Source: a virus | Virus record (IMG/VR): IMGVR_UViG_3300031951_000515 | Span: 1-38,011 of that record | Length of the DNA stretch: 38,011 bases | Reading direction: 5' to 3' (one strand) | Part shown: one piece after another, positions 3,255 to 36,807 of the stretch | Layout: each line of letters starts with the position of its first letter | How positions within the stretch are numbered: the first letter of the stretch is position 1 | Program-made: the position numbers and the translations under genes | Notes under the pieces: generated by a model | What the model was told of the DNA's origin: nothing | The model's input: only the letters and a program-made list of their open reading frames with translations | The model's database searches: none

Positions 3255-3578
3255 ATGAAACGCGAAGAATTGGTAGTGGCGTTGCGGACTTTGGCGGATG
3301 CGGTTGAGGCTCTGCCTGAAGAGATCGCTGAGCGCGTCAAAGTGGAGGCTCGATTTTACAAGGCCACAACGATTGATGAATTGCGCAGGCTGTGCGAAGT
3401 GTTCCCCGGAACCCGAAAGGTGATCGACTTGATTCATAGCGAAGTAGGAGCCATCGAAAGTTCGCTCGGGCCAATTCACGCAGTGTTGTACTACGATCGC
3501 GCAGTACTTGGACAGAAGGTGACGGTGTCAGAAGCCGATTTGTCACTTCTCGACGCTCCGCAGCCGGTCGAAGTCTAG
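3255..3578 (+). CDS. Hypothetical protein, helical
   Basis: A 107-residue, mostly helical, mildly acidic protein. It opens with 'MKREELVVALRTLADAVEAL', continues with a central 'TIDELRRLCEVFPGTRKVIDLI' segment, and ends acidic. A purine-rich ribosome binding site (AAGGGG at 3239-3244) precedes a run of A before the ATG. It lies between the recombination genes and the replication gene, so an early function is likely. I recognise no family or catalytic motif. Confidence 0.6.
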   Translation: MKREELVVALRTLADAVEALPEEIAERVKVEARFYKATTIDELRRLCEVFPGTRKVIDLIHSEVGAIESSLGPIHAVLYYDRAVLGQKVTVSEADLSLLDAPQPVEV

Positions 3579-3613
3579 TTAGGGCAGGGCCGGTTCTTTG
3601 GAGGAGGCACAAC

Positions 3614-4486
3614 ATGAAAGTTGGCACGATGGATCTGTTGAAGTTCAAGCGATTGGTGCGACGGCTCAAGGAGTCGAACCGAGGCGTTGTCGGACTGCTT
3701 GAAATGCTCTGGGCGGGTGTGGCGAAGAATTGCCCTCGGGGCGACATAGGTCGCTTCTGTAACGAAGACATCGCGGTCATGGTGGATTGGGACGGGGACG
3801 CGGACGATCTGGTCGCAGCCCTCGTTGAATGTCGGTGGCTCGATGAAGACGACGAGTGCCGTCTGGTCGTTCATGATTGGGCCGACCATTGCCCGAACTA
3901 CCTCAAGGCCAACATTAACCGATTGGGGGGGTTCTTCGGGAGGCGCTTGGACGTTTCGACTGTTTCGACTGTTGAGCCTGAGACCCCACCTAAGACCCCC
4001 TCTAAGACCCACCCTGAGCCCGGGCCTATGGGGGGGGCTATGAGGGAGTCTTCGCGCGCGCAGATCTTACCAAGTCTATCCTTACCTATCCAAGTCTATC
4101 CACATCTAACCACATCTAACCACATCCAACCTAACCAAACCAAGCCAAGCCAAGCTGAGTGGTTGGAGAAGTGGGGGGTGGTAGTTGATGAGGATTTTCT
4201 CGAGCGGGTAAGAGTCGAAGCGAATCGCTTCGCGAAATTGCCGAGACCGCCTGAAAACCGCGATGTAGTGTGGAGGGCGTGTTTCGTGGCTACTGTGCTC
4301 GATTGTCGCGAAGTAGTGGCTGATTCTTGCGATGCGATTAGGAACGGCACGGCGAAGAAACCGATTGCGTACCTGGAAGGTGCAATGCGCAAAGCCTGCG
4401 AACTTCATGGCGAGGAGTACGACGCGATCAAGAAGCTGGCATCTCCGACGCCACCACCTAAACCGTTGACGATGATCCACGGTTGA
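3614..4486 (+). CDS. Putative replisome organizer / replication initiator
   Basis: A 290-residue protein with three parts. Residues 1-115 look like the N-terminal winged-helix domain of phage replisome organizers ('GVVGLLEMLWAGVAKNCPRGDIG' ... 'VVHDWADHCPNYLKANINR'). Residues 116-180 are a low-complexity Pro/Thr/Ser linker encoded by short DNA repeats. Residues 181-270 form a helical domain ('DEDFLERVRVEANRFAKL') that could recruit a helicase. Phage initiators such as lambda O carry the origin inside their own gene, and the repeats here fit that layout. GGAGGAG at 3600-3606 supports the start. Function is inferred; no direct catalytic motif is visible. Runs of seven and eight G interrupt the linker DNA. 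Confidence 0.6.
   Translation: MKVGTMDLLKFKRLVRRLKESNRGVVGLLEMLWAGVAKNCPRGDIGRFCNEDIAVMVDWDGDADDLVAALVECRWLDEDDECRLVVHDWADHCPNYLKANINRLGGFFGRRLDVSTVSTVEPETPPKTPSKTHPEPGPMGGAMRESSRAQILPSLSLPIQVYPHLTTSNHIQPNQTKPSQAEWLEKWGVVVDEDFLERVRVEANRFAKLPRPPENRDVVWRACFVATVLDCREVVADSCDAIRNGTAKKPIAYLEGAMRKACELHGEEYDAIKKLASPTPPPKPLTMIHG
4070..4156 (+). repeat. Iteron-like direct repeats, candidate replication origin
   Basis: The stretch is built from short direct repeats with almost no G on this strand. CCAAGTCTATCC occurs at 4070-4081 and 4090-4101. CACATCTAAC follows at 4101-4110 and 4111-4120, with CACATCCAAC at 4121-4130, and then CCAAG-type units run to 4155. The ten-base period is about one helical turn. 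Inside a putative initiator gene, these are good candidates for initiator binding sites. Simple repeat slippage in a linker is the alternative. Confidence 0.55.
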
Positions 4487-4503
4487 GTTTCATAGGAGCA
4501 AAC

Positions 4504-4749
4504 ATGGACGAGGATAAAAAGCTATTGATGGCGATCGCGACATCGTTTGTTGTCCACCAGTGTGACACATGCCATTGGTGGACAGATGTGCTTGGCACTA
4601 TAGACGGGAGAGCGGTCTGCGTGTGGCATACAGGCTTGCGTGACAACAAGGTGCGCAAGGTAGATTTCTCTGGAAAGAAGTCCATGCGAACAACTGCCGA
4701 TTTTGGTTGCGTCTGCTGGCAAATGGACGAACGGAAAAAGTCCCGATAA
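4504..4749 (+). CDS. Small Cys/His-rich protein, first cassette gene
   Basis: An 81-residue protein starting at ATG 4504 with AGGAG at 4496-4500. Cysteines and histidines are paired as if to bind a metal: 'HQCDTCHWW', 'CVWH', and 'FGCVCWQM' near the C-terminus, after a short helical start ('MDEDKKLLMAIATSF'). The stop codon lies inside the AAC box of the first palindrome, as cassette genes often end close to their recombination site. Family unknown; a zinc-stabilised small fold is inferred. Confidence 0.6.
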   Translation: MDEDKKLLMAIATSFVVHQCDTCHWWTDVLGTIDGRAVCVWHTGLRDNKVRKVDFSGKKSMRTTADFGCVCWQMDERKKSR

Positions 4750-4832
4750 CGCTTGTAATCACACGGTTGCCGCGTGTGAGTATCGTTGAGGTAACAGCCG
4801 GACGGCAACTCCGGTGCATTTTTTTGTTCGCC
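4745..4832 (+). other. attC-like site A
   Basis: Left box GATAAC (4745-4750) and right box GTTCGCC (4826-4832). GTTGCCG (4766-4772) pairs with CGGCAAC (4803-4809). T4810 is left unpaired, and CAC/GTG pairs further out, with two mismatches between. The left arm also forms its own hairpin, CACACG/CGTGTG. Seven T (4819-4825) precede the right box, so the + strand RNA could also terminate here. Confidence 0.62.
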
Positions 4833-4850
4833 TGCTTTAAGGGAGTAGAG

Positions 4851-5048
4851 ATGAAGGTTTTGGATTTAGGACATATCGAAACGGCACCCAAAGCGATCAA
4901 AGAGCAATTGACGATTGAGCGTGACGTTTTGAGGCGATTCGGGTTCCGTGACGACGAGTTGCGGATAGTGGAGTGCGACAATTACAAGTGGCAAATTATA
5001 CCAGCGAACAAAGGGGGTAATGATGGACGATTTCGAAAAACGGTTTGA
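4851..5048 (+). CDS. Hypothetical cassette protein, 65 aa
   Basis: Begins at ATG 4851 with AAGGGAG (4839-4845) as ribosome binding site, 19 bases after the GTT box of site A. The 65-residue product ('MKVLDLGHIETAPKAIKEQL' ... 'RRFGFRDDELRIVECDNYKW') has an alpha/beta look, but I recognise no family. It overlaps the next start by 26 bases in a different frame, so the two genes are probably translationally coupled within one cassette. Confidence 0.55.
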   Translation: MKVLDLGHIETAPKAIKEQLTIERDVLRRFGFRDDELRIVECDNYKWQIIPANKGGNDGRFRKTV

Positions 5049-5364
5049 TGCGGATTATGTGTTCGAAGGAACAAAAAATGACGTTGTTCAGTTGTGGCTG
5101 GACAATAAGTCACGATGGTATCCAGATGTGCTGGTCGCAAAGAACAGTCGAGGCGAGATGTTTTGCAGCATGACAGACGTTATTTGCGAAGACTTGCACA
5201 CAATGCCATTGTTTTGCAAAAGCGGAACCATGAAACACGTTTCTTGCACAAGTGGCGAGACTCTCCATGTATGTGAAGCGTACCGACGCGAACAAATTAA
5301 GCCGCTGCGGTGCCGTACGCAGGCCGGACGTGAAGATTCGAGAAAGCCAGATTACGCGATCTGA
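5023..5364 (+). CDS. Hypothetical cassette protein, 113 aa
   Basis: Starts at ATG 5023 (GGGGG at 5013-5017), with an alternative in-frame ATG at 5020. The product has an acidic, aromatic N-terminal half ('DFEKRFDADYVFEGTKNDVV', 'QLWLDNKSRWYPDV') and a Cys-bearing C-terminal half (FCSM, ICED, LFCKSG, VSCTSG, VCEAY, RCRT). The spread of cysteines suggests a metal site or disulfides, but no known motif is clear. It ends just before site B and is the second gene of the same cassette. Confidence 0.55.
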   Translation: MDDFEKRFDADYVFEGTKNDVVQLWLDNKSRWYPDVLVAKNSRGEMFCSMTDVICEDLHTMPLFCKSGTMKHVSCTSGETLHVCEAYRREQIKPLRCRTQAGREDSRKPDYAI

Positions 5365-5368
5365 GTCA

Positions 5369-5457
5369 GGCGAACGCACAAAATCACCGGGTTGCCGCCG
5401 GTGAGTATCGTTGAGAAAACAGCCGGACGGCAACTCCGGTGCATTTTTTTGTTAGGT
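5369..5457 (+). other. attC-like site B
   Basis: Left box GGCGAAC (5369-5375) and right box GTTAGGT (5451-5457). CACCGGGTTGCCG (5385-5397) pairs with 5428-5434 and 5436-5441, 13 pairs with a single unpaired T5435. The left box, extended as CAGGCGAAC, is the exact complement of GTTCGCCTG at the start of this cassette in site A. The right half is nearly identical to site A, while the small left hairpin differs by two compensated base pairs. Seven T (5444-5450) precede the right box. Confidence 0.68.
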
Positions 5458-5464
5458 GATTGAG

Positions 5465-6118
5465 ATGAGGAATACGGTAGTCACGATTTACGGACGAGTT
5501 GGGAGTATGAAGTCTCCGATTGCTGAGCGAATCCGAAACGCATGCGCTAGGTCGGGAGTGCGGTGCGAAGTGGACGATCACAGACTGTTTTCGTTTGACG
5601 AGGATTTCACCGAAAAGTATGAGCAAGCGTTCAAGCAGGCAGTGCAGTCGCCCGCAGATGTCGTTGTGCTTGTTGTCGGAACTGGACACGATTCATACAG
5701 TCCGTTTCGGTTCACCGCTTTGTTATCGTGCGATATGAAATACAGCGACAAATTAAAAGACCCGCGATGGCAGCGTAAACGCCTTGAAGTAATGGAGCGG
5801 GATGATTTTACGTGCATGTGTTGTTACGGCGATGACGTGACGTTGAACGTGCATCACACGTACTACGTTTTCGATAAAGACCCGTGGGACTATCCGACAG
5901 AGACATTGTGGACGATATGCCAAGACTGCCACCCAGACATGGATGAGCAGCGCCGAATACTTCAAGAGTTGAGCGGCGGCTTGTGTCCTGAAGCGAGAAC
6001 CAACCTCGGTGCGTTCTTGGTTGTCTTGCGTGGCCTCATGTTTGGCGATCAGATTTTGTTGTTGCATCGGATGCATAAAGAGGTTGAGCAAACACTGGCG
6101 GCGGATTCGTCACGATAA
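5465..6118 (+). CDS. HNH-type nuclease-like protein in a cassette
   Basis: A 217-residue protein; ATG 5465 is preceded by AGGTG at 5454-5458 (a GTG at 5456 is an alternative). Residues 98-158 resemble small HNH nucleases: 'KDPRWQRKRLEVMERDDFTC', paired C117/C120 and C152/C155, a His pair at 130-131, and 'CQDCH'. The conserved 'W.YP.E.L.T.C..CH' layout is clear. Residues 1-75 form an alpha/beta domain with a P-loop-like 'GRVGSMKS', but the glycine before the lysine is replaced by methionine, so nucleotide binding is doubtful. It may be a nicking or defence nuclease. The stop codon overlaps the left box of site C. Confidence 0.7.
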   Translation: MRNTVVTIYGRVGSMKSPIAERIRNACARSGVRCEVDDHRLFSFDEDFTEKYEQAFKQAVQSPADVVVLVVGTGHDSYSPFRFTALLSCDMKYSDKLKDPRWQRKRLEVMERDDFTCMCCYGDDVTLNVHHTYYVFDKDPWDYPTETLWTICQDCHPDMDEQRRILQELSGGLCPEARTNLGAFLVVLRGLMFGDQILLLHRMHKEVEQTLAADSSR

Positions 6119-6202
6119 CGCTACCGTTCACCCAGCCGCCGGTGAACGGTTCCAAAGTCAACAACGCACCTACGGCGGCTTGGGTGCAACGGTTTGTTCG
6201 TC
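6114..6202 (+). other. attC-like site C
   Basis: Left box GATAAC (6114-6119) and right box GTTCGTC (6196-6202). Arm 6123-6141 pairs with 6173-6193: 19 base pairs broken only by unpaired T6181 and C6187. The left arm alone can form a ten-base-pair hairpin (ACCGTTCACC/GGTGAACGGT). Sequence is unlike sites A and B but the architecture is the same, which argues for selection on structure. Confidence 0.68.
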
Positions 6203-6217
6203 TTTATGGGAGTGATT

Positions 6218-6604
6218 ATGGCAAAGAAAAAATACGCAGTGTGCATTGCTTTGTTTGTGTTCCTGTTTGTTAGTTGCACTACAGTGCAAAGACCAAAGCC
6301 GTTAATCGTCGAGGTAAAATGCAGCGAATGCGATGGCAATGGGAAAGTAACGTATGGACCAGATCACCCGATTGTCAAAATTGGGTTCGACCCAGGCACG
6401 TATGATTGCCCAATGTGCGGCGGGTCGGGGCGACTTGCCGAGGAATCGGCAGAGAGGACGACGTATGACGGCAATGGAAAGCGTCCATCCACAATGCCGC
6501 CCAAGAGATCAGACGGGAGGGAGTTTGACGGCGGACCAGATTTCGGGAACGGCATCTGGGCTAAACTAGACGAAGACGGTGTTTGGCGTAGGTACGGTGG
6601 TTAG
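6218..6604 (+). CDS. Lipoprotein with DnaJ-type CxxCxGxG motifs, cassette gene
   Basis: A 128-residue protein from ATG 6218 (GGGAG at 6208-6212). A basic start and hydrophobic stretch end in 'LFVSC' (Cys20), a lipoprotein signal. Two zinc-binding motifs follow, 'CSECDGNG' (35-42) and 'CPMCGGSG' (64-71), the repeat form found in DnaJ-like zinc domains. The C-terminal half is Gly/Asp-rich with 'PDFGNGIWAKLDEDGVWRRY'. It would be anchored in a membrane, facing the periplasm or outside. In a phage it could be an envelope-modifying or exclusion protein; that is inference. Confidence 0.68.
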   Translation: MAKKKYAVCIALFVFLFVSCTTVQRPKPLIVEVKCSECDGNGKVTYGPDHPIVKIGFDPGTYDCPMCGGSGRLAEESAERTTYDGNGKRPSTMPPKRSDGREFDGGPDFGNGIWAKLDEDGVWRRYGG

Positions 6605-6607
6605 AAA

Positions 6608-6697
6608 GACGAACGCACAGGATAACCCAGTGCGAGGAGAAAACATGGACAACGAAAAACAGCAGGCCGAGCACTTGGGTTCATCCGATTGTTCGTC
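6608..6697 (+). other. attC-like site D
   Basis: Left box GACGAAC (6608-6614) and right box GTTCGTC (6691-6697) are exact complements. GGATAACCCAGTGC (6620-6633) pairs with 6671-6686 over 14 base pairs, leaving only T6676 and C6682 unpaired. The 37-base loop contains a ribosome binding site (GAGGAG at 6634-6639) and the ATG at 6645 used by the next gene. AAAGACGAAC at its start is the exact complement of the cassette's first bases in site C. Confidence 0.72.
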
Positions 6698-6896
6698 GAG
6701 AGTATCGGCGGCAAGGGCGAAGCGATGCGTGACGCATAATCACGGCTGCGATTGTAGGAAGTATCGGTTTGCTAGGATGCGCCAAGCTCTGATACAGATC
6801 ATGATTTGGGCAGAGCAGGACGCTATTAGTGGGGAGACAAGACAGAAAGCGATGGCGGACATTGCAAAAGCGTGTTGCGCCGGGCTGGTGGATTAA
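6645..6896 (+). CDS. Small Cys-rich cassette protein whose start lies in attC-like site D
   Basis: An 83-residue protein. ATG 6645 and its ribosome binding site lie in the loop of site D, so the first ~17 residues ('MDNEKQQAEHLGSSDCSS') are encoded by the recombination site. The body has a Cys/His cluster ('KRCVTHNHGCDCRKY'), then a helix pair ('MRQALIQIMIWAEQDAISG', 'TRQKAMADIAKACCAGLVD'). No family recognised. The leading segment 'EHLGSSDCSS' recurs in the next gene because sites D and E are nearly identical. A later internal start would remove the site-derived residues, but no other good ribosome binding site is visible. Confidence 0.55.
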   Translation: MDNEKQQAEHLGSSDCSSRVSAARAKRCVTHNHGCDCRKYRFARMRQALIQIMIWAEQDAISGETRQKAMADIAKACCAGLVD

Positions 6897-6986
6897 GACG
6901 AACGCAAAGGATAACCCAGTGCGAGAAAGGAAAGTACCAATGGCAGAAGACAGTAACGAGCACTTGGGTTCATCCGATTGTTCGTC
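6897..6986 (+). other. attC-like site E
   Basis: Left box GACGAAC (6897-6903) and right box GTTCGTC (6980-6986). The arms (6909-6922 with 6960-6975) match site D base for base, including unpaired T and C. The loop is again 37 bases but differs in sequence, with its own AAAGG and ATG at 6941. Conserved arms with a changed loop suggest that the arms are what a recombinase or other protein reads. Confidence 0.72.
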
Positions 6987-7146
6987 GGGTATTGAGTATG
7001 ACTGGCAAGCAAGCAACAGAGGCAAATCCAAAACGGCAAAGTTAGGGTTGTTTTGGTGTCGTGCATGCGATACCCACAAAGTTGGCCAGCACGGTAAATG
7101 CGAAGCGTGCGGTCACAAAGAGAACCGGAATAAAATCCGGCAGTAG
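6941..7146 (+). CDS. Small zinc-ribbon protein whose start lies in attC-like site E
   Basis: A 68-residue protein starting in the loop of site E. Its first ~17 residues ('MAEDSNEHLGSSDCSSG') come from the site, and the rest ends in a four-cysteine zinc ribbon ('FWCRACDTHKVGQHGKCEAC' then 'GHKENRNKIRQ'). The ribbon suggests nucleic-acid or protein binding. The ribosome binding site AAAGG is at 6927-6931. The stop (7144-7146) falls just before the next GACGAAC box. Exact role unknown. Confidence 0.55.
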
Positions 7147-7149
7147 TCA

Positions 7150-7291
7150 GACGAACGATAGATTCTCCCTGGCTCAGCCGGGGAGAAAACCGGGGAAACC
7201 TCGGCTGAGCCGGGGAGAATGTCGCCAATAACTCGGCTGAGGTGGGGATAATGTCCGGCGAGATTATGCTGAGTTGGGGGGGGCGTTGGAA
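7150..7291 (+). repeat. Degenerate or extended terminal attC-like site F with repeated arms
   Basis: It opens with a good left box GACGAAC (7150-7156). Arm 7162-7183 then pairs with 7199-7220 at 20 of 22 positions with no unpaired bases. The expected right box is broken: GTCGCC at 7221 lacks one T. The right arm is repeated in decaying form twice (from about 7232 and 7268), ending near a GTTGGAA at 7285. Either the end of the array has decayed or the site is unusually long. Confidence 0.5.
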
Positions 7292-7317
7292 TCGGGAAGT
7301 GTTTTGAGGGATCATCG

Positions 7318-7635
7318 ATGGATGGAATCGACGCAGAGACAAGAGAGCGAATCGAATTTGCGATGCGGTACGGAGGCGTTAGCGGTCGCGACAAGGGACT
7401 GTTGTCGATGTTCGATTCGTGGTGGGCTGCAAGAGCTAACGCGCCAGCCTGGACCGCAAACGGCAAAGGGTATTGGAAGTGGAGGTGGAAGTTAGAGGTG
7501 GCTCGCGTGGAGCGTCAAATTCTTCGCGAAAACACGAACGCAAAGCGATGCTCGGGCTGCGGAGCGAAACTGCGGACTAGGAGTTGCCTTGCCTGCGACC
7601 TGGAGAGAAAAAAGCATGAAGCCAAGATTACTTGA
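7318..7635 (+). CDS. Small protein with C-terminal zinc ribbon
   Basis: A 105-residue protein preceded by GAGGG (7306-7310). The N-terminal half is helical and tryptophan-rich ('LLSMFDSWWAARANAPAW', 'YWKWRWKLEVARVERQIL'). The C-terminus holds a CxxC...CxxC ribbon ('KRCSGCGAKLRTRSCLACD'). It directly follows the cassette array and overlaps the next gene by 20 bases. No named family recognised; a DNA- or RNA-binding accessory protein is likely. Confidence 0.6.
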   Translation: MDGIDAETRERIEFAMRYGGVSGRDKGLLSMFDSWWAARANAPAWTANGKGYWKWRWKLEVARVERQILRENTNAKRCSGCGAKLRTRSCLACDLERKKHEAKIT

Positions 7636-7828
7636 CCTAAAACAATTCGCGGTCGCAGTTGGTGTCAGCTACGTGACCATGCGACGATGGAAGCGGCGAG
7701 GATTGTTGCCGAATCCCCGAATCAAGAATCCCAACAATCGCTGGTACTGGACTTCTGAGCAAGTCCATCGATGGTGGCGCTCATTGGCGATCATTGGCGA
7801 TCAGGAAGGCATAGAAGACGCAGAGTAG
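7616..7828 (+). CDS. MerR-like HTH protein
   Basis: A 70-residue protein from ATG 7616 (GGAGAG just upstream, in the end of the previous gene). Residues 5-25 ('LLDLKQFAVAVGVSYVTMRR') form a MerR/HTH_17 helix-turn-helix, followed by 'WKRRGLLPNPRIKNPNNRWY' and 'WTSEQVHRWW'. It is the second of three such proteins in the window (others at 577 and 19119). It could act as a late regulator or recombination accessory; nothing in the context decides which. Confidence 0.65.
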   Translation: MKPRLLDLKQFAVAVGVSYVTMRRWKRRGLLPNPRIKNPNNRWYWTSEQVHRWWRSLAIIGDQEGIEDAE

Positions 7829-7903
7829 CCGGTTTCCTCTGGTAGGATCCCACCGTGCGTTCAAGGGTGACTCGCGCGCGGCGGAAACTTTCGGGGACCA
7901 GCC

Positions 7904-8203
7904 ATGGCTGCTTTGTTGGATCGAGAAACCGTTTGGGCTGTCGCCTGTAAGGCGTTTGAAAATGCCTGCGGTTCGCCGGATCGCTTCGAGCACTTCGTGC
8001 GCAGTGATGATCGACTGCGCGGTTTGAACTCTTGGCAGATCGCTCTGGTCGTCAAACTGTGTTTGATACTGTTTCAGATCTGGATGGCTTCAAGCACCAA
8101 TCAGCCGTCGGCCATCAAGGATCCGGTTTTTCCGGAGAACTTCGATTTTGAGTTCGGGAAGGCGCAGACGCACCCCCTAGATCACCCCGAGGAGGATGAC
8201 TGA
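7904..8203 (+). CDS. Small protein with one possible membrane segment
   Basis: A 99-residue protein with a helical N-terminal domain ('VWAVACKAFENACGSPDRFE'), a hydrophobic stretch 'IALVVKLCLILFQIWMAS' and an acidic, proline-containing tail. The ribosome binding site is weak. It heads a run of overlapping genes for small membrane proteins, and its stop overlaps the next start at 8203. A role in lysis or envelope work is inferred from that company only. Confidence 0.6.
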   Translation: MAALLDRETVWAVACKAFENACGSPDRFEHFVRSDDRLRGLNSWQIALVVKLCLILFQIWMASSTNQPSAIKDPVFPENFDFEFGKAQTHPLDHPEEDD

Positions 8204-8505
8204 TGATCGCAGCGATCACCTCGATAGTGGGCGGATTCGTGTTCCTTGTGGGCGCTGTGTGGGCAGCGATGACTTGGTTTTCCAAGCCAGCCAAGCAAAT
8301 ACTCAAGGCTGTCGATGCCGAGAGTTTCGATCTGGCGAAATATATATCCTCGATGTCCCTGCCTGAACCATCACCAAGTCGCGCAGAGCCGCTCCAGAAC
8401 GCTGATGCGCTGATGTCCTACTTCGAGGCGACGAACAACAAAGCAGGGCAGGACGCAATTGCGGCGGTGGTTGCTGCAATTTTTGCGCAGCGTGACGCGA
8501 AATGA
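8203..8505 (+). CDS. Single-pass membrane protein, holin-like size
   Basis: A 100-residue protein with an N-terminal membrane segment ('ITSIVGGFVFLVGAVWAAMT') and a soluble, Ser/Pro and Ala-rich remainder. A strong AGGAGG (8190-8195) precedes the start, and the reading frame overlaps the genes on both sides. Size, topology and a peptidase nearby suit a holin or spanin-like partner, but no family signature is visible. Confidence 0.55.
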   Translation: MIAAITSIVGGFVFLVGAVWAAMTWFSKPAKQILKAVDAESFDLAKYISSMSLPEPSPSRAEPLQNADALMSYFEATNNKAGQDAIAAVVAAIFAQRDAK

Positions 8506-25056: not shown

Positions 25057-27513
25057 ATGGATGGCGCGCAGTTTCAAATTGTTTTGGTCGACGAAACCAC
25101 CTCGGGAACGTCGACCGCAACAGCGGAACCAGCGAGGCGAGAGGCCGCACCAAATCCGCCTCCCTCGCGTCCGGATCCTGCGCCACCGCTCCGTGCTGCC
25201 GTCGCACCAACGCAAACCGATCGGCCTGCAAACGTAGCCGAAACTCGTGCCACCCCGGCAAACGAGCGGGCCGATCGGGAACACACCGCAGCAAGGAGAG
25301 TCCGCCGGCCGACCGAGGGCGATGTGCGGAAAGAGTTAGTCAAGAACGTGCACGAAGCAACGAAGATCGTCTTCGACGCATCTCACTTAAAGGAAAGCCT
25401 GCATCCTTTTTTCGCTGCGATTGCCGAGTCGCAGAAAGTGTTTAATGGCGTTGTCGCAGCCGCGAAACTGCTAACTCCCCTGCGACCAAACGCAACGCCT
25501 CCAGCGCCACCACCGGCAGCAAGGGTAGAGCCTCCGACGCCAACGCCTCCAGCGCCACCACCGGCAGCAAGGGTAGAGCCTCCGACGCCAACGCCTCCAG
25601 CGCCACCACCGGCAGCAAGGGTAGAGCCTCCGACGCCAACGCCTCCAGCGCCACCACCGGCAGCAAGGGTGGAGCCTCCGACGCCAACGCCTCCAGCGAC
25701 ACCACCGGCAGCAAGGGTGGAGCCGGTATCGCCAGCGAAGCCAACAGAAACGCGCCCGGAGCCTCGAGATGAGGATGCGCTATTGGCCGCTTGGGAGGAA
25801 TACACCACCCGGACGAAACCAGACAGCCCCGCGCCGCAGCCGCAGCCGCAGAAACAGCCTGAGACGAAGCCGACTGCCACCAAGCAAGAGCCTGAGCAAC
25901 CTTTTTGGCGATCGATAGCGGCAAGCATCTCCAACCTCGTAGGAGCCAAAGACGATCCCGAACCGGCCAGAGAACCACGGCCGAAACCTTTGGGGAAGCA
26001 AGAGATTGCCGTCAAGGTGGATGCTCCGAAGCAAACTCCGGAAGACGAATATCTGTTCGGTCGCGAGAAACTGGACAACTCTCCAAATCCAAAACAGCAA
26101 GAACCAGAGAAACCAAAACCACATGCCCCTGTGATTTCATTCGGGCTCGACTCCATAAGCAAGTCAATCAGTGGTGAGATCCGAGGAGCCTTATCTTCGG
26201 TCGCATCGCTGTTTTCCAAGCGGGACAACACCCCAAAACCAGAACCTACAGCGGCAAAAACCGACGACCAGTCCAATTCTCGACGCGACAGATCGCTCGA
26301 TGAACCCAGGGCAGATACTTCCAGAAACGACGAAGTTGGCGACGAAACGCGACTCGCACAGATCGACCGAAACACCGATCCGGAGCACCTCGAGACCGCA
26401 GCCGATCGCATCGTGAAGGCAATTGAGAGTGTATGGGCCGAGAACGAAAAGACGAAACAGATCGCGGAGCAGACCGGGAACGCAAACGAGAGCCTTCATG
26501 ACAACACGCCATCGCGCATCGAAACGCCAGCCGATCCGCTTCCCGCATCTCCGATAGAAAATCGCCCGGAACCTCCCTCGAAGCAAACCCCGGAAGACGA
26601 ATTCCTGTTCGGTCGCGAGGACTCACAGGAAGTGAAGCCAAAATCCGAAGGCGATGGAGGTGGCGTGAAGCCACCCGGTCTCGCGAACAAAGCGCTCGAT
26701 GCGGTCAAGGCCGACATCCCAGTACAGGCGGGAGCAAGAGTCGAGGGAGCGGCTGTGGCAGAGGAAGCCGCCGTAGCAACGGAGGGCTCGGCAGCGATGG
26801 AAGCCGCAGCATCTCGAGCAGCGCAAGCTCTGGCGCGAATTGGCCCAGCGCTTGGCCCGGTGGCTGTCGCAGCGGGAGTGGTCGTAGGATCGCTTGCAGC
26901 GGTCGCAGCGGCAGGGTATTTGGTCTACAAAGCCTTCGATGCGATCGGAGACGCAGCCGCCAAACAAGCAGATGAACTTGCTGGCTACAGCGCAGACATC
27001 GCCAAGCAGCGCGCCGAAACCGACGTTCGGCGTCAGATGCGACTGATCGACCGAGCTAACGAGCGCGGCGAAACGCTTGCTCGCGTCGGAGATGCAAAAG
27101 ATCGCCTAGATGAAGCGATCAACAATTTAGGTGATAGAGTCACCGATCAATTTGTGGATTTGGCTGATCGTCTACTTCCCGCAGTGGAGTTACTGATTGG
27201 CGGAATAAACACCACCGCCAATTTTGTTGAGACTATTGGCACATCGTGCGGAGTCATTGAGGCGACGGTTATCGACTGGCTAAATCTACTAGGCGACGAA
27301 GCGGCGGAAGACGCCAAATGGCGTGACGCAAACGAAAAACACATGCAGAAGGTCGATAAGTTGATGGGGCGGCAAGACGCCAGGGAAAGACGCAGAGAGG
27401 AAAAGGAATTCAAGGATCCGCTGCTGAATCTGCTCCATAACGCGATGGGCGCTCCGAGGCAGATGGATCCTGCCCTAATGCAGCAACTCATTGCGCAGGC
27501 GAGGGGACTCTGA
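25057..27513 (+). CDS. Large repeat-bearing tail protein, possible tape measure
   Basis: An 818-residue protein following the tail tube gene. The first ~560 residues are mostly disordered and charged, rich in Pro, Lys, Glu and Asp, with five 16-residue repeats of the form 'TPPAPPPAARVEPPTP' at about 147-226. The motif 'KQTPEDE(Y/F)LFGRE' occurs twice (about 325 and 509). Then come an Ala-rich helix, a hydrophobic membrane-like stretch ('VAVAAGVVVGSLAAVAAAGY'), and a helical, coiled-coil-prone C-terminus. Place, length and the hydrophobic C-terminal part suit a tape-measure protein, although the disordered half is atypical. A minor structural protein is the alternative. Confidence 0.6.
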   Translation: MDGAQFQIVLVDETTSGTSTATAEPARREAAPNPPPSRPDPAPPLRAAVAPTQTDRPANVAETRATPANERADREHTAARRVRRPTEGDVRKELVKNVHEATKIVFDASHLKESLHPFFAAIAESQKVFNGVVAAAKLLTPLRPNATPPAPPPAARVEPPTPTPPAPPPAARVEPPTPTPPAPPPAARVEPPTPTPPAPPPAARVEPPTPTPPATPPAARVEPVSPAKPTETRPEPRDEDALLAAWEEYTTRTKPDSPAPQPQPQKQPETKPTATKQEPEQPFWRSIAASISNLVGAKDDPEPAREPRPKPLGKQEIAVKVDAPKQTPEDEYLFGREKLDNSPNPKQQEPEKPKPHAPVISFGLDSISKSISGEIRGALSSVASLFSKRDNTPKPEPTAAKTDDQSNSRRDRSLDEPRADTSRNDEVGDETRLAQIDRNTDPEHLETAADRIVKAIESVWAENEKTKQIAEQTGNANESLHDNTPSRIETPADPLPASPIENRPEPPSKQTPEDEFLFGREDSQEVKPKSEGDGGGVKPPGLANKALDAVKADIPVQAGARVEGAAVAEEAAVATEGSAAMEAAASRAAQALARIGPALGPVAVAAGVVVGSLAAVAAAGYLVYKAFDAIGDAAAKQADELAGYSADIAKQRAETDVRRQMRLIDRANERGETLARVGDAKDRLDEAINNLGDRVTDQFVDLADRLLPAVELLIGGINTTANFVETIGTSCGVIEATVIDWLNLLGDEAAEDAKWRDANEKHMQKVDKLMGRQDARERRREEKEFKDPLLNLLHNAMGAPRQMDPALMQQLIAQARGL
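25495..25734 (+). repeat. Five tandem 48-base repeats
   Basis: Five copies of a 48-base unit begin at 25495, 25543, 25591, 25639 and 25687. The first three are essentially identical; the last two carry GGGTGGAG in place of GGGTAGAG, and the fifth has further changes at both ends. They encode Pro/Ala repeats. Near-identity points to recent expansion by slippage or recombination, so copy number may vary between isolates. Confidence 0.9.
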
Positions 27514-29537: not shown

Positions 29538-29770
29538 AGCTAGGAATCAATCCGTTTGACTTGACCAGCGCACAGATTGTGGCGCTGGAAGAATTGATGC
29601 CGTCGATTCGTGCCAAGAAGCGGATCGATGCAGGGAACTATGACGCGACAGACTACCAAGCAGTTTATCAACTGTGGCTCGAAGCTTACGGCGATGAACA
29701 AATCGCAGCAAACGCTCGAAACCAGGCTGTCCAACTGCTAGTCGATAAACATTGTGGGAAGATGCCATGA
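29226..29770 (+). CDS. Frameshifted long chaperone (gpGT-like product)
   Basis: A -1 slip at A-AAA-AAA (29501-29507) would add 87 residues to the first 94, giving 181. The -1 frame is open from the slip to TGA 29768-29770 and reads 'KYERRIRLGVELGINPFDLT' then 'SAQIVALEELMPSIRAKKRI', a coherent helical domain. Many tailed phages make a short and a long tail chaperone in just this way, with the long one binding the tape measure. Unlike the usual order, the candidate tape measure lies upstream. Confidence 0.58.
29501..29507 (+). promoter_or_regulatory. Slippery heptamer A-AAA-AAA for -1 frameshifting
   Basis: The heptamer is in the right phase (ATA AAA AAA AAT) for tandem slippage, and the downstream frame is the -1 frame. 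The A run is nine long, so transcriptional slippage could act too. Only a weak hairpin is visible just downstream. Confidence 0.6.
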
Positions 29771-32700
29771 GTACCGTACCTGACCAGACTCGAAACGACA
29801 GCCGAAACGATGGACGCATCAGCGACGCGATAAAAAAGCCTGTCGCGAAGACGAAGGGCTACTCTCCGATCCAAACATGGTGGCTACGTCGGCACCAAAA
29901 GCTACCCGTGATGTCGTTCCAGGTCATCGAGCAGATCCTACTCGACGAAACGATCCAGATCGGACTTGCAGCCCGCCGCGCGGCGATCCAAGGATGCGAG
30001 TTTGGCTATGAGATGAACGGCCAATGGCAGATCGGCGTGATGTGCCAGGATGAAGCGGTCGGAGCGTGGGTAATGCGGCAGATCCGCAAACTCTGGTCCT
30101 GTGCGCTTGAGCACATTTCCTCAGCGCAGGTTTACGGCTGGAGCGGCATGGAAGTCATCTGGGAGCGATCCGAGGAATTCGGGACGTGGGAAATCGCTAC
30201 GATCGAACAGCGACACGCAAACGACGTGCGGGTGTTGGTCGCCAATGAAACCGGACGACCGTGCGGCGTTCGTTTTATGCACGTCAAGAGCGCCCTTGAA
30301 GGCTACGTCGACCTACGGTTTCCAGAGGCGTTTTTCCATAGCTACGACGCGCAGCCGGGCGAACTCTACGGGCGATCTGTCCTCACAGGGGCCTACCGCG
30401 CATGGGCGGATAAGCACTTTGACGGCGGTGCGATCGATGTCCGTCGATTGTTTATGCACAAGGATGCTTATGGTGGTGCCGACCTGCGCTATCCCGAGGG
30501 CTCGACCGACGTGGGAACCATCGACGCACCGCACGAAATTAGTAACCGCGAGCTAGCGCGAGAAATCGTCGAACAACTCGAAGCGGGAGGTGTGACGACC
30601 ACTCCAGCCCAATACGACGACAAAGGGAACCCGATGTGGAATCTCACACGCGCCACCGTCCCGTCGAACCCCTCGCACATCCTTCAGTACCCTGGGGATC
30701 TCGATGGGGAGATGCTACGCGGCATGTTCGTACCCGATGGAGTTCTCAAAGCCGACGATACGGGATCCTGGCAGGGTAGGTTAATCCCCATGGGGATCCT
30801 CTACGCGAACTTAGACCCATGGGTGGAAGTGATCCTGCGAGACATCAAGGAGCAACTGCTCGAGCCGGGCATCGTCAATAACTTTGGACGCATGATTCCG
30901 TTTGACGTGTCCCACAAGCCACTCGCCAAGCAAGCCCTTGAGCAGCAACGCGGACCCTCCATGGGAGGCATGGGAGGCATGGACCCATCCATGGGCGGCA
31001 TGGATCCCGGCATGGATCCCATGGGCGGCATAGACGATGGCAGCGATCCCAGCATGGGCCAGGATCCAACCCTGATGGGTGTGAAGTTCGATGCAGTGCA
31101 AGCCGTTGGGGAAGGCGTTCTATCGGCGTCCAATGTTGTTAAGGCAGCAATGTTCGCCCTTGGAGAGACCGAGCCACAACTGATGACAGCGATGCGAGCG
31201 CCAAAAGGCTACACCAAGGAAAAGCCCCTAGTAATTGCTGGCAATGAATACCATGGTGGGCAGTTCGTGCCATCGGATGTTGTCGATAAAGCCACGCCCG
31301 AGCAGCGCAAGGAACTTGAGAGCGGCGAAAAAGCGTCGTCTGATGAGGAACCCAAACCGAATCCCAAGCCGCTCCCTGTCAAAGCCCCCACTCTTGATGG
31401 CAAAAGCAAGTTTCACGATCGATGGTCGCTGACATTGCAGGCCGGGCACAGGCTGACGCTGAAGAACGGAAACAAAGTGCAAATCATTAGCCAACGCAAA
31501 GGCGGCAAGCTGTTGTACACGGTTCGGCATTACGATCCATCGCGCAAGCGTACTGATTACGATCGAACCTTCACACACATTGCCGATGCGGCGGACTTTG
31601 CTTCGATGGTATTGCACCATCACTCCAGCCAGACCGCACCAAAAGCGACAAAACCAGCGCAGACGAGCGCAGCACCCAAACCCAAGCGAGGAAGCCTAAA
31701 CGAGCGGAACTACTCATACAAGTCCACCAAGTTCTTTTCAAGCGGCGTGAAATCTAAGTTCAAGGATAACCTGGAGGCTTTGCGTACTCTCAAGTTGATC
31801 GAAGACGAGGATCGCGAAGCAACCCCGGAGGAAAAAGAAAAGATTTCTAAGTTCGTTGGGTGGGGACAGATGCCAGGACTGTTCAACGACTACCACGAAC
31901 GTCTTTATTACGATCGCGACGACCTATCCGAAGAACTTCGGAGGATCGCAACCAACTCCAAGGAACAGGACAAATGGGACAAGGAGCGGAAGGAACTCAA
32001 AACCCTGTTGGGCCAAGATGGCTACGAAGCGGCTAGAGCATCTGTAATTAACGGGCATTATACCCACCCCGAAGTGGTCAAGAAGCAATGGGAGATGGCA
32101 AAGCGGCTAGGCTTCACAGGCGGAAAAATGCTGGAGCCCGCCGTTGGTGGAGGTTACTACCTTGGGTTCATGCCGGAAGACGTAAAAAGCAATACGGCCA
32201 TCACGGCGGTTGAGATGGATCCAGGATCGGCGACGATCGCGAAAGCACTCTACCCGGATGCCAATGTAGTTGTTTCTCCGTTCGAGGAATACAAGACACC
32301 AGACAACTACTTCGATCTTGTTGCGACCAATGTTCCATTCGATGAATCGCAAATCATACGGGATTCCAAGTTAGGCAATTTGCGTCCCAACCTCCACGAT
32401 TACTATTTCCTTCGCTCAGCCCAAACGACCAAGCCGGGTGGGTTGGCAATGCTCATTACGAGCGCTGGGACGATGGACAAGATTTCCCCCGATGTTCGGA
32501 AGGCGATCGACGCAGACATGGAGTTTGTGTCTGCCGTTCGATTCCCAGGGACCATGCACAAAGAGAACGCTGGAACCGAAGTCGTTACCGATTTGGTGAT
32601 TCTTCGCAAGAAGGGAGCGGTTCCCGAAGATATCCCTGATGAAGTGCCACCGGAAGCTCTGCCACCAGGAAACCGCTGGGCGGAACAATCATTCGAGAGA

Positions 32701-35700
32701 TTCACAAACGAGGAACACAATGCAAGGCTCTTGAAAGAGAGGTATGGGGGAAACCTTCCCGACTCTGTGCAGCCTGAAACAAAACAACCAGGTTTCACAG
32801 GAATAACGGTGGACTCACTAGGACGGCTCTACCACTGGAAAGATGGCAAGAGAGTCCCTGCGCCGCAATGGGATGACACGGTGGAAGTCCCCGATCCGCT
32901 GGGAGGAGATCCGATTCGAGTCAACCGTTACTTTGCAGAGCATCCAGAACAGATCCTCGGAACGCTGGATCGATCTGGAACCATGTACACGGGCGGAATG
33001 AAAAACGTCCAAGCAACCGACGACTTTGAGACCCTGTTCCAAGATGCTATCGATCGTCTCCCGGAAAACATCGTTCGAACCAGCCAAGCTAGCGTTCGCG
33101 GACCATCGATACCAGACGAGCCGGAACGCATTTTGACGGCTACCAAGCACAACGAAGGAGAAACGGTCATTCACGATGGCGGGCTATACACCTACGTCAA
33201 CGGAGCCCTGGAGCCACATCGATTCAAGAATGAAAAGAAAGAGGTCTTAATGTCCATGATCGGTATTCGCGACAAAGTTCGAGAACTCGTCGCAGCCGAG
33301 CGAGCCGGGAAAGATGGTGCCGCAATCCGGTCGGAACTCAACGCGATGTACGATTCTTTCCGGGGCAAGTACGGGCTACTCCATGACCATGCAGCGGAAC
33401 TCAAGGGCGACCTGGACCGCCCGATGATTATGTCCCTGGAGTCCTACGATAAGAAATCCAAGGAGTTCCGTAAAGCAGATGTGTTTGAGAAGAGCACGGC
33501 ACGCCGCGCTACCAGAGTCTCCGAGGCTAAAACCATCGAGGATGCCGTTGGCGTGTCCATGCACGATGCAGCATCGATCGATGTCGCTCGGATTTCATCT
33601 CTGCTTGGCAAGACTGTGGAAGATGTAGGACAGGAACTTACCAAGAAGGGATTGGCCTATCTAAACCCGAACGGTGACAAGTGGGAATCTCGCGATGAAT
33701 ACCTATCAGGAAACACCAGGGAAAAACTTGCCCAGGCAATTGAGGTTGCAAAGACAGACGATCGATACCTACCCAACGTGGAAGCGTTGCGAGCAGCGCA
33801 GCCAGAAGACGTTCCGATCCAGGACATCTCGGTGCGTATGGGCTCACCCTGGGTTCACCATGAAGTTTATGAAGCGTTTGTGGCAAGTGCGGTAGGTATC
33901 AACCGATATGGATCCTCGGGAATCAAATTTCGGTACAGCGACAGCGCGGCATCCTGGCTGACGGAGTTGCCTTCCAGCGTAAACTCGGGTAGAGCAGCGG
34001 AGGCTTGGTCGATCTATGACTCCGAAGGCGACATTCGCGTAAAGTTCAGTGAAATCGTCGAAGCAGCGATGACGCAACGAGCGATCAACGTCTGGGAGTA
34101 CGATGGCGAAACCAAATTTCTTAATCGCGAGTTGACCGACGCGGCACAGTCAAAGGTGGAAGAGCTGCAAGAGAGGTTCAGCGAGTGGGCTCTGAGTCTG
34201 CCGCAAGTATCGCAGGTTCTTGAAAAGTCCTACAACGAAAAGAACAACAATATCAAAGAGCGGACATTCGATGGGAGTCACCAAACATTCCCAGGAATGG
34301 ACGAAAAGTACGCAGCCCGCCTGTATGACATACAAAAGAATTTCGTCTGGCGCGTAGTGACGACAGGTGTTGGGCTTGCGGCACACGAAGTCGGAACAGG
34401 TAAAACTACGAGCATGGTCGCAGCGGCGATGGAGTGTCGTCGTTTAGGGCTTGCGAAAAAACCCGCGTTTGCCGTACTGAAATCCACCATAGAGCAATTC
34501 ACGCGCGAAGCCCAAGAGCTTTACCCGGAAGCCAGGATTCTCTCCCTAAGCGATATGTTCGACAAGGAATCGCGAAGAGAGACACTGCATCGAATTGCGA
34601 CTGGCGATTATGACATGATTATCATGACGCACGAAAACCTTGAAGGGATGCGACTGCGACCAGAGAGCGAACAAGCGTTCATCCAAGAGGAAGTGTCAGA
34701 CTTGGAAGCGGCCATCATCGATGCACATGCAGAGAAGGCAGCCGCAAAGGGTAAATCGGAGTCCAAGATTGGCGACAAGATCGTCAAGGAATTGGAGAAA
34801 CGGAAAAACAAGTTGCTTGAGCGATTGCAGAAGTCGCAAAACCCTGACGACAAAGACCCGATTTTCTTTGAGGATTCCGGGATAGATATGCTGTTTGTGG
34901 ATGAGGCTCATAAGTTCAAGTCGCTCCCGGCCAATACCTCGCGAAACTACGCTGGCATCTCCAAGCAGGAAGCGAACCGAGCGATGGACATGCTATTCAA
35001 GTGCCGTTGGTTGCAAAAGAACAACAATGGACGCGGAGTGGTATTTGCGACCGGAACACCGATTAGCAACTCCATGACCGAACTTTTCAACATGCAGCGG
35101 TATTTGCAGTACGATGAACTCAAGAATCGCGGGCTACACAAGTTCGACGCATGGGCGGATACGTTTGGAGTTCTAACTAACGATCTTGAGTTCAAGCCGA
35201 GCGGAGACATCGCACGCAAGCAACGCTTTGCGAAATTTGTGAATGTTCCTGAATTGAGGTTACTAGCCTCGCAATTCATGGACGTTCAGATGGCAGACAA
35301 CCTCCGCAAGCCAGACGGGTCGCCAGTAGTGAAGCGACCGCGAAAACATATACGTTTGATCGTTTCCGAAGAGACCGACCGCGTAAAGGAGATGCAGGCA
35401 GAAATCGCAGCCCGAGCCGCCGCGATTAAAGGGCAACGCAAGTTTGAAAAAGGCGAAGACAACCCCTTGAAAATCATGGGCGATGCCAAAATGGGATCGA
35501 TGGATCCACGGCTCGTTCACAAAGAGGTCGGAGATGACCCACAGAGCAAGGCGAACAAAGCAATCGCCGAAGTCATTCGGATGTATCACGAACATCCAGG
35601 AACAGTTCAGGCTGTCTTTAGCGATCTGGGAGTTCACGCAAAGGAAAACAGGATCAGCCTGTTCGACGACATGCGATCCAAGTTAATTGCACAAGGCATT

Positions 35701-36807
35701 CCCGCAAACGAAATAGCGGTGTTGTCGGATCCCGACATGAAAGACGCGGAAAAAGACCGGATAGCTACCAAGCTTCGCACGGGAGACGTTCGCATCGCGT
35801 TTGGTTCGACGCAGACCTTGGGAACCGGGATGAATATCCAGGACAAGCTAAAGGCGGTCCACCACTTGGATATACCTTACAACCCAGCGGCGCTCGAGCA
35901 ACGCAATGGACGTGCTTACAGGTCAGGAAACGCGAATGAAGAGATCGACGAGTTCCGTTATACAACTCTCGGATCATCTGACCCAATGTTCTGGCAGATC
36001 AACGCAAGGAAAACCAATTTCAAAGACCAGTTCATGCTTGGCAAGGCTGGTCGCGAAATGGAAGACCTCCGGTCGGACGAAATGACACCTGAACAGCTCG
36101 TTGCAATTTCGACGGGCGATCCACGACGATTAGAACGCATCGAAATGGACCAGCAGTACAACAAGCTCCAACGCGCCAAGAGTCGCCACGCTATTGATGT
36201 CGCTCGCATGAGGACATTGGTAGAGAAAGCTGACAGCAGGCAGGAACGCTTGGTTCAAGACATTCAGGAGCACGCCGAGGATTTGGCGATGTTGAACTCT
36301 CAGGAAGACTTCGTTTATGAAGCCCCGTATTTGCGAGGGTACCGCGAAAGCCAATGGACAGCGCCTACGCCGTGGGAAAAAACGACCGTCATTAAGGAGC
36401 GAAAGAAGGCAGAGGAATCGCTCAAGGAAGCAATCGAACACTACAACGGAGAACAGGAAAACAAGACCTACTACTCTAACTATGATCGCAGTAAAGGATT
36501 GCCGGTTGCCAAGATTAAGGGATTCGAAGTGAAGATCCTCGATGACGGTCGCGTGTCCGTTCAGGGTCCAAGCGGAAGAGTCCAGTTTGCGCAGCCTTCG
36601 TTGCAGTCCATCGAAGCGGCAATAAAGAAAGTCAAAAAGCGACACGAAGAGGCGGTGGAAGCCTTGAAACAACATGAATCGGAAATTGAGCACTTTAAGC
36701 GGGAAGTGGAGAAACCGTTCCAGTTGCAGGGTAAACTAGATTCGGTACGCAAGAGGCTGATCGAACTGCGTGAAGCCCTTGGCGAAACCGTTAGACCCGA
36801 AGAATAG
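29767..36807 (+). CDS. Portal - adenine methyltransferase - SNF2 helicase fusion (DUF935 + DarB-like)
   Basis: A 2346-residue single frame; the start at 29767 overlaps the previous stop (ATGA). Domains: residues ~15-395 read as a DUF935/Mu-type portal ('TIQIGLAARRAAIQGCEFGY', 'WSGMEVIWER', 'MRGMFVPDG'-like end). A Met/Gly linker spans ~397-438 and a small domain ~479-520 ('KPLVIAGNEYHGGQFVPSDV'). Residues ~646-707 carry 'KFVGWGQMPGLF', followed by an N6-adenine methyltransferase with 'LEPAVGGGYY' (~789) and NVPF (855-858). A SNF2-type helicase has GTGKT (1543-1547), DEAH (1712-1715), 'FATGTPISNS' (~1760) and 'EQRNGRAYRSG' (~2044-2054). A coiled C-terminus follows. Methyltransferase-helicase halves like this (phage P1 DarB) protect incoming DNA from restriction. 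No other portal gene is seen. Confidence 0.85.
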   Translation: MSTVPDQTRNDSRNDGRISDAIKKPVAKTKGYSPIQTWWLRRHQKLPVMSFQVIEQILLDETIQIGLAARRAAIQGCEFGYEMNGQWQIGVMCQDEAVGAWVMRQIRKLWSCALEHISSAQVYGWSGMEVIWERSEEFGTWEIATIEQRHANDVRVLVANETGRPCGVRFMHVKSALEGYVDLRFPEAFFHSYDAQPGELYGRSVLTGAYRAWADKHFDGGAIDVRRLFMHKDAYGGADLRYPEGSTDVGTIDAPHEISNRELAREIVEQLEAGGVTTTPAQYDDKGNPMWNLTRATVPSNPSHILQYPGDLDGEMLRGMFVPDGVLKADDTGSWQGRLIPMGILYANLDPWVEVILRDIKEQLLEPGIVNNFGRMIPFDVSHKPLAKQALEQQRGPSMGGMGGMDPSMGGMDPGMDPMGGIDDGSDPSMGQDPTLMGVKFDAVQAVGEGVLSASNVVKAAMFALGETEPQLMTAMRAPKGYTKEKPLVIAGNEYHGGQFVPSDVVDKATPEQRKELESGEKASSDEEPKPNPKPLPVKAPTLDGKSKFHDRWSLTLQAGHRLTLKNGNKVQIISQRKGGKLLYTVRHYDPSRKRTDYDRTFTHIADAADFASMVLHHHSSQTAPKATKPAQTSAAPKPKRGSLNERNYSYKSTKFFSSGVKSKFKDNLEALRTLKLIEDEDREATPEEKEKISKFVGWGQMPGLFNDYHERLYYDRDDLSEELRRIATNSKEQDKWDKERKELKTLLGQDGYEAARASVINGHYTHPEVVKKQWEMAKRLGFTGGKMLEPAVGGGYYLGFMPEDVKSNTAITAVEMDPGSATIAKALYPDANVVVSPFEEYKTPDNYFDLVATNVPFDESQIIRDSKLGNLRPNLHDYYFLRSAQTTKPGGLAMLITSAGTMDKISPDVRKAIDADMEFVSAVRFPGTMHKENAGTEVVTDLVILRKKGAVPEDIPDEVPPEALPPGNRWAEQSFERFTNEEHNARLLKERYGGNLPDSVQPETKQPGFTGITVDSLGRLYHWKDGKRVPAPQWDDTVEVPDPLGGDPIRVNRYFAEHPEQILGTLDRSGTMYTGGMKNVQATDDFETLFQDAIDRLPENIVRTSQASVRGPSIPDEPERILTATKHNEGETVIHDGGLYTYVNGALEPHRFKNEKKEVLMSMIGIRDKVRELVAAERAGKDGAAIRSELNAMYDSFRGKYGLLHDHAAELKGDLDRPMIMSLESYDKKSKEFRKADVFEKSTARRATRVSEAKTIEDAVGVSMHDAASIDVARISSLLGKTVEDVGQELTKKGLAYLNPNGDKWESRDEYLSGNTREKLAQAIEVAKTDDRYLPNVEALRAAQPEDVPIQDISVRMGSPWVHHEVYEAFVASAVGINRYGSSGIKFRYSDSAASWLTELPSSVNSGRAAEAWSIYDSEGDIRVKFSEIVEAAMTQRAINVWEYDGETKFLNRELTDAAQSKVEELQERFSEWALSLPQVSQVLEKSYNEKNNNIKERTFDGSHQTFPGMDEKYAARLYDIQKNFVWRVVTTGVGLAAHEVGTGKTTSMVAAAMECRRLGLAKKPAFAVLKSTIEQFTREAQELYPEARILSLSDMFDKESRRETLHRIATGDYDMIIMTHENLEGMRLRPESEQAFIQEEVSDLEAAIIDAHAEKAAAKGKSESKIGDKIVKELEKRKNKLLERLQKSQNPDDKDPIFFEDSGIDMLFVDEAHKFKSLPANTSRNYAGISKQEANRAMDMLFKCRWLQKNNNGRGVVFATGTPISNSMTELFNMQRYLQYDELKNRGLHKFDAWADTFGVLTNDLEFKPSGDIARKQRFAKFVNVPELRLLASQFMDVQMADNLRKPDGSPVVKRPRKHIRLIVSEETDRVKEMQAEIAARAAAIKGQRKFEKGEDNPLKIMGDAKMGSMDPRLVHKEVGDDPQSKANKAIAEVIRMYHEHPGTVQAVFSDLGVHAKENRISLFDDMRSKLIAQGIPANEIAVLSDPDMKDAEKDRIATKLRTGDVRIAFGSTQTLGTGMNIQDKLKAVHHLDIPYNPAALEQRNGRAYRSGNANEEIDEFRYTTLGSSDPMFWQINARKTNFKDQFMLGKAGREMEDLRSDEMTPEQLVAISTGDPRRLERIEMDQQYNKLQRAKSRHAIDVARMRTLVEKADSRQERLVQDIQEHAEDLAMLNSQEDFVYEAPYLRGYRESQWTAPTPWEKTTVIKERKKAEESLKEAIEHYNGEQENKTYYSNYDRSKGLPVAKIKGFEVKILDDGRVSVQGPSGRVQFAQPSLQSIEAAIKKVKKRHEEAVEALKQHESEIEHFKREVEKPFQLQGKLDSVRKRLIELREALGETVRPEE

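Follow-up and report, generated by a model that had tools for sequence, protein, structure and literature searches.

An integron-type cassette array with apparently reversed genes in the early region of a putative Pirellulaceae phage

Integrons have been viewed as bacterial tools, with occasional captures of them reported in phages. Attachment-site clusters or integrons have been described in 21 phages, among them TJE1, PH101, P12002L, Vibrio and Shewanella phages, and P1, and five of six phage attCs that were tested were recombined by IntI1 (Qi et al. 2023, PMC9892861). The first-pass annotation of the DNA analysed here (hereafter the window, an entire IMG/VR virus record of 38,011 bases) regarded phage attC arrays as undescribed, which this earlier report contradicts; its central proposal, an integron-type attC array within the gene order of a phage, was borne out by matches to a class 1 attC model, by related phages and by complementarity of the cassette ends. 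We conclude that the window carries a genuine integron-type cassette array, at a phage locus flanked by replication genes on one side and RusA/zinc-ribbon genes on the other, because the class 1 model ranked its five sites first and because close relatives carried unrelated cassettes, with the break at an AAC. Our favored reading, to which we assign a probability of about 0.85, is that a temperate Pirellulaceae phage carries in its early operon an array of integron kind in which each cassette comprises one attC followed by a reversed gene. At the level of sequence this is supported by the sites, their strand and boundaries, the differing cassettes of close relatives, cassettes shared among phages and IntI genes in phages.

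The array and its attC sites

The replication initiation gene upstream of the array was the last sequence common to the window and two relatives, L006 (the locus of record G005, 42.5 kb) and L007 (the locus of record G006, 44.6 kb), and replication or recombination genes together with RusA flanked arrays in several phages. All five palindromic sites of the first-pass annotation were recovered at the positions in Table 1. Sites were scored with two covariance models: R1, built from 14 plasmid-borne attCs that belong to class 1 resistance cassettes and are unrelated to the window phage, and R2, built from phage sites. When R1 was run over window positions 3500-8500 with all filters off, the five sites took the first five places, each with unchanged ends and each on the minus strand. 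Only the best two of the window's five sites were individually significant with R1, the other three having E values of 0.17-0.58; all five outranked everything else in 3500-8500 and sat on one strand. The top four R1 matches in L007 were likewise the predicted sites, on the minus strand, and the R1 signal in L006 was weak (best match 9.2 bits). In an alignment of 28 phage sites, 11 of the 15 pairs of the stem showed compensatory changes, and two columns were extrahelical. Palindromes alone prove little, since a score for AAC..GTT palindromes with arm alignment did not separate the sites from shuffled sequence, in which windows reached 27-38. An Rfam search returned no matching family for the sites. 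Compared with the core box GTTRRRY, the phage sites had a nearly invariant GTT, with the next bases often beginning with C. With five attC and no IntI found nearby, the window array fits the CALIN class.

Table 1. Positions of the array, its flanks and other phage genes in the window
Feature	Positions	Strand	Remarks
Phage-type tyrosine integrase	left end of window		Fragment, truncated by record end
Bet annealing protein	2152		Window phage gene
Replication initiation protein	3614-4486	+	Upstream fixed flank; phrog_9474 2.6e-17; 92-94% to L006/L007
81-aa small ORF	4504-4749	+	Stop overlaps first AAC
attC 1	4748-4828	-	AAC..GTT; R1 8.4 bits (E = 0.58), R2 56.9 bits, both minus
Cassette A	4750-5374	+	attC 1 + ORFs 4851-5048, 5020-5364; ends set between AA and C; 9-base end complementarity incl. 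GTT/AAC
attC 2	5373-5453	-	R1 10.5 bits (E = 0.17), R2 75.0 bits; 95% identical site in L006 beside other genes
Cassette B	5375-6118	+	attC 2 + HNH endonuclease gene 5465-6118; phrog_119 2e-11
attC 3	6117-6198	-	R1 9.9 bits (E = 0.25), R2 69.9 bits; two extrahelical bases
Cassette C	6119-6613	+	attC 3 + lipoprotein-like, CxxC-rich gene 6218-6604; 10-base end complementarity
attC 4	6612-6693	-	R1 20.2 bits (E = 6e-4), R2 74.9 bits; loop GAGGAG..ATG; 96.6% identical site in L007
Cassette D	6614-6902	+	83-aa gene 6645-6896; predicted start codon within attC 4 (SD+ATG read-through)
attC 5	6901-6982	-	R1 19.7 bits (E = 8e-4), R2 77.3 bits; ribosome site + ATG in loop
Cassette E	6903-7155	+	68-aa gene 6940-7146; predicted start codon within attC 5 (SD+ATG read-through)
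Right-end anchor	7150-7190	.	GACGAACGATAGATTCTCCCTGGCTCAGCC; attI-like by position; similar anchor ends L050 array
Zinc-ribbon protein	7318-7635	+	Downstream fixed flank; homologue 3' of RusA in L006/L007
Large terminase	17650		Window phage gene

At the right the arrays ended at fixed anchors, one common to L006 and L007 and a similar one in the window and L050; the window's anchor had been missed in the first-pass annotation. At the left, no attC was seen upstream of the 81-aa ORF, and this ORF had no Pfam match. Separately, a sequence at L006 15014-15031 (TGCAATCAATTGTTATG), at the left end of that array, resembles the right half of a truncated attC.

Cassette ends were compared by matching the bases 3' of GTT with the complement of the bases 5' of the next AAC. 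Four window cassettes gave complementarities of 9, 10, 7 and 7 bases with GTT/AAC counted, the same numbers as had been claimed; in cassette B (5453-6117) end complementarity failed, at 4 bases only. Across 13 phage arrays, at least 5 bases beyond GTT matched in 32 of 51 cassettes when each was compared with itself; the corresponding counts were 9 of 210 when the comparison was with other cassettes of that array and 1 of 64 when both ends came from a single site. Substitutions between homologous cassettes fell mostly at the third codon position of the predicted frame (2, 4, 29; 6, 4, 39; 7, 8, 39), and this bias extended to a frame starting inside an attC (2, 4, 29). Cassette contents included N6/N4 methyltransferases (L007, L041), a Dam-type methyltransferase (L053), Lar restriction alleviation (L044), the HNH nuclease of the window, a PAPS-reductase domain (L051), DUF6884 (L043) and many unknowns.

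Elsewhere in the window, a 2351-aa frame (29752-36807, plus strand), judged by eye only, has a portal-like N-terminus apparently joined to a methylase/SNF2-helicase-like region and is conserved in G005, and positions 25057-27513 (plus strand) encode a protein rich in PTPTPPAPPPAARVE repeats.

Relatives, cassette turnover and the integrase

Records G005 and G006 were colinear and mostly 93-97% identical, and both were 92-94% identical to the window as far as base 4486. The arrays of the window, L006 and L007 stood at the same locus and had no gene in common at the DNA level, sharing attC types only (95-97% to window sites 2 and 4), and downstream, identity between L006 and L007 set in precisely at the last site's AAC. 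The relatives thus differed in exactly the cassette region, as the comparison suggested in the first-pass annotation had foreseen, and non-homologous arrays at one locus amount to whole cassettes having been gained and lost. Among the relatives compared, no two near-identical phages differed by exactly one cassette. In a second record of the window phage (G001, 99.7% identical) the array was unchanged from base 5554 onwards, and turnover is accordingly not rapid. The distant RepO relatives L027-L031 had no attC array.

Neither the window nor L006/L007 or their records G005/G006 yielded an IntI, and these arrays are not complete integrons; the window record may itself be incomplete, as about 6 kb more would be expected from G005. 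The phage integrase, whole in L006, was rejected as an IntI, scoring 21.7 bits against a cut-off of 265. IntI above the cut-off did occur beside the array in two related phages, G017 and G022, where the extra patch and an attI mark complete integrons; both contigs also carried terminase and portal genes. In these two phages intI and attC were canonical, the 5' end of intI faced the array, and the cassette genes were flipped. At L112 2422-2960, a cassette adjoining the attI of G022 was without a clear ORF. The same attC family was present in 53 of 60 Pirellulaceae genomes searched, with a true IntI in 5 of 10 checked. Since most of these genomes carry the attC family and some of those checked a true IntI, an enzyme acting in trans is plausible for the window phage, on which it would be presumed to act, and the shared attC family points to Pirellulaceae (Planctomycetota) as the probable host.

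An array of this kind might instead be a dead relic, a piece of a host chromosomal integron captured by a phage and no longer recombining, as the lack of a detected IntI in the window phage, the identical array in two records and some mismatched cassette ends would allow. We consider this unlikely, because host arrays are oriented oppositely, because arrays differ wholly between phages that are mostly 93-97% alike, and because at least 13 phage contigs bear multi-site arrays, two of them with IntI. Under the favored reading of a functioning phage array, we infer that recombination takes place and that an integron integrase, supplied by the host chromosome or, as in two relatives, by the phage itself, would fold attC in its single-stranded form and cleave it at the left edge (between AA and C, plus strand). 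Circular cassettes would be inserted at the fixed right-end anchor and later excised. A phage operon transcript would cover all cassettes, and many attC loops would provide a ribosome site, a start codon and a short leader peptide.

Gene orientation and start codons in attC loops

The left arm of class 1 attCs runs AAC, 8 bases, an extrahelical base, 6 bases and a second extrahelical base, and the right side usually ends in GCGTT. Read in the gene sense, phage sites showed AACGC at their left side and carried the extra bases in the right arm, and reading them in reverse gave the canonical spacing. The first-pass annotation had noted the unpaired arm bases, which are present, and missed that all lie on the right arm, a placement that indicates reversed orientation; its assumption of a gene followed by its attC was the wrong way round. 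R1 and R2 gave the same strand at every site that both matched. When an orientation was called clear if the longest ORF in one direction between successive sites was at least 1.3 times the longest in the other, the 13 phage arrays gave 33 reversed and 0 canonical cases, against 61 canonical and 5 reversed in those chromosomal arrays of Pirellulaceae that carry this attC family (31 and 3 in an independent set). The phage sites had been found with a pattern derived from this attC family, and the survey is biased towards it. A second pattern scan added six further contigs, with starts in 3 of about 15 sites and mixed ORF directions (L125, L126), and neither overturns nor strongly extends the result.

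Several survey candidates were set aside. One IMG/VR record, L059, behaved as a host array (orientation 1:8, no in-attC starts) and was excluded; it held ten attC sites with canonical genes, like a host chromosomal integron, and one attC type was repeated four times. L045 and matches in non-planctomycete genomes had odd spacing and were taken as chance. Where the L047 array ends, sequence near 8393 (gene sense) resembles a tRNA 3' half, and ARAGORN found no tRNA there.

The boundaries of shared cassettes bear on the same question. A 915-bp cassette common to L041, L048, L049 and L058 started at the AAC of its left attC, and the block carrying the lipoprotein-like gene of cassette C, also found in L050 (84%) and L043 (77%), stopped at AAC+4. 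The latter cassette was shared among the window, L043 and L050 without a conserved left attC, so an attC and its gene do not always travel together.

Start codons occurred inside the sites as well. Of 70 phage attCs, 30 had a loop containing a ribosome-site motif plus an ATG, the reading frame of which continued through the attC into the cassette gene, compared with 0 of 71 in the other sense and with 3 of 92 and 4 of 64 in host arrays. Within the window such loop starts were seen at sites 4 and 5, and the genes of sites 1 to 3 began just past the site. Leaders recurred between phages (MNKPxDV..GCFDASNCSTAI, MSETNEASVxSVV and M..NEHLGSSDCSS). The host exceptions mostly resembled phage-type cassettes, one each in L066, L069 and L144 and three in L149. 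The last three (L149 2603-3727, on a Pirellulaceae chromosome) are reversed, have in-attC starts and adjoin intI (4660-5742), as if recently captured.

Canonical cassettes, each a gene followed by its own attC and cut between G and TT at the right edge, with in-attC starts supplied by the preceding cassette, would fit near-palindromic sites that have both AAC and GTT, and the end complementarity is equal for either direction. We consider such cassettes very unlikely in the window: R1 scored the sites on the minus strand only, the extrahelical bases and the GCGTT side fit a canonical attC only in reverse, shared blocks extend from the left AAC to the right one, and 30 genes would be left without a start of their own. 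Donation of leaders by the preceding cassette was accordingly dropped, as the reversed orientation makes it unnecessary. Window cassettes do not have an attC at the 3' end with the gene in attC direction; from the R1 strand, the position of the extrahelical bases, the loop start codons and the shared-cassette boundaries, they appear non-canonical, with the attC forming the 5' end of the cassette and belonging to the downstream gene. That the hairpins are instead transcription terminators or translational leaders, with genes turning over at a phage hot spot through ordinary recombination, homologous or illegitimate, gains something from the variable early regions of phages, the Bet and RecT-type annealing genes nearby and the ribosome sites within loops, and is scarcely credible given that it predicts neither cassette-specific end complementarity nor extrahelical bases, class 1 model matches or an array-adjacent IntI in two phages.

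With each gene 3' of its attC, one phage operon transcript would read all cassettes; the array would be expressed in this way, which may also account for the reversed orientation. We judge about as likely as not a broader proposal, in which Pirellulaceae phages run an integron system of their own, attC serves both as a single-strand recombination site and, with the same strand present in mRNA, as a mobile 5' leader that brings a ribosome site and start codon, and the cassette pools of host and phage are separate, with some leakage in both directions. If so, reversed genes would suit a phage operon, and phage cassettes would be antisense to the host cassette promoter, which would keep the pools separate; leakage is suggested by the phage-type cassettes in host arrays L066 and L069 and those beside intI in L149.

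Comparison with described integron systems

A bacterial system for swapping genes appears to have been adapted by viruses: the phages of one set share a dedicated cassette locus that has an architecture and an orientation of its own, and two of them encode an integrase for it. Three questions thereby become testable: whether counter-defence genes (methyltransferases, Lar-type restriction alleviation) are shuffled in phages by site-specific recombination, whether an attC can also act as a start of translation, and whether cassettes pass between phages and hosts. In the open-access papers searched, we found no account of entire arrays whose genes oppose their attCs, nor of start codons supplied by attC loops. 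Class 1 cassettes have the same attC geometry, but the phage sites differ in the reversed gene-to-attC direction, in their greater length (about 80-100 bases) and in having C as often as A after GTT. The sedentary chromosomal integrons of Pirellulaceae (e.g. Rhodopirellula) have the same attC family and a true IntI, and differ in their canonical genes (61:5 and 31:3) and near absence of attC start codons. Reverse integrons of Treponema (PMC3607928, PMC4909258) resemble G017 and G022 in their unusual direction, with intI and cassette genes read the same way; in Treponema it is intI that is transcribed toward attI, whereas in G017 and G022 intI and attC are canonical and the cassette genes are flipped. 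Closest in kind are the phages of PMC9892861, which like those studied here have attC clusters, some with IntI, and methyltransferase cassettes. The TJE1 and PH101 arrays were described there as typical of bacterial arrays, and the attC model match in TJE1 was on the gene strand, whereas genes in the present arrays run against attC. Unlike those phages, the present ones have start codons in attC loops and a system common to a set of planctomycete phages.
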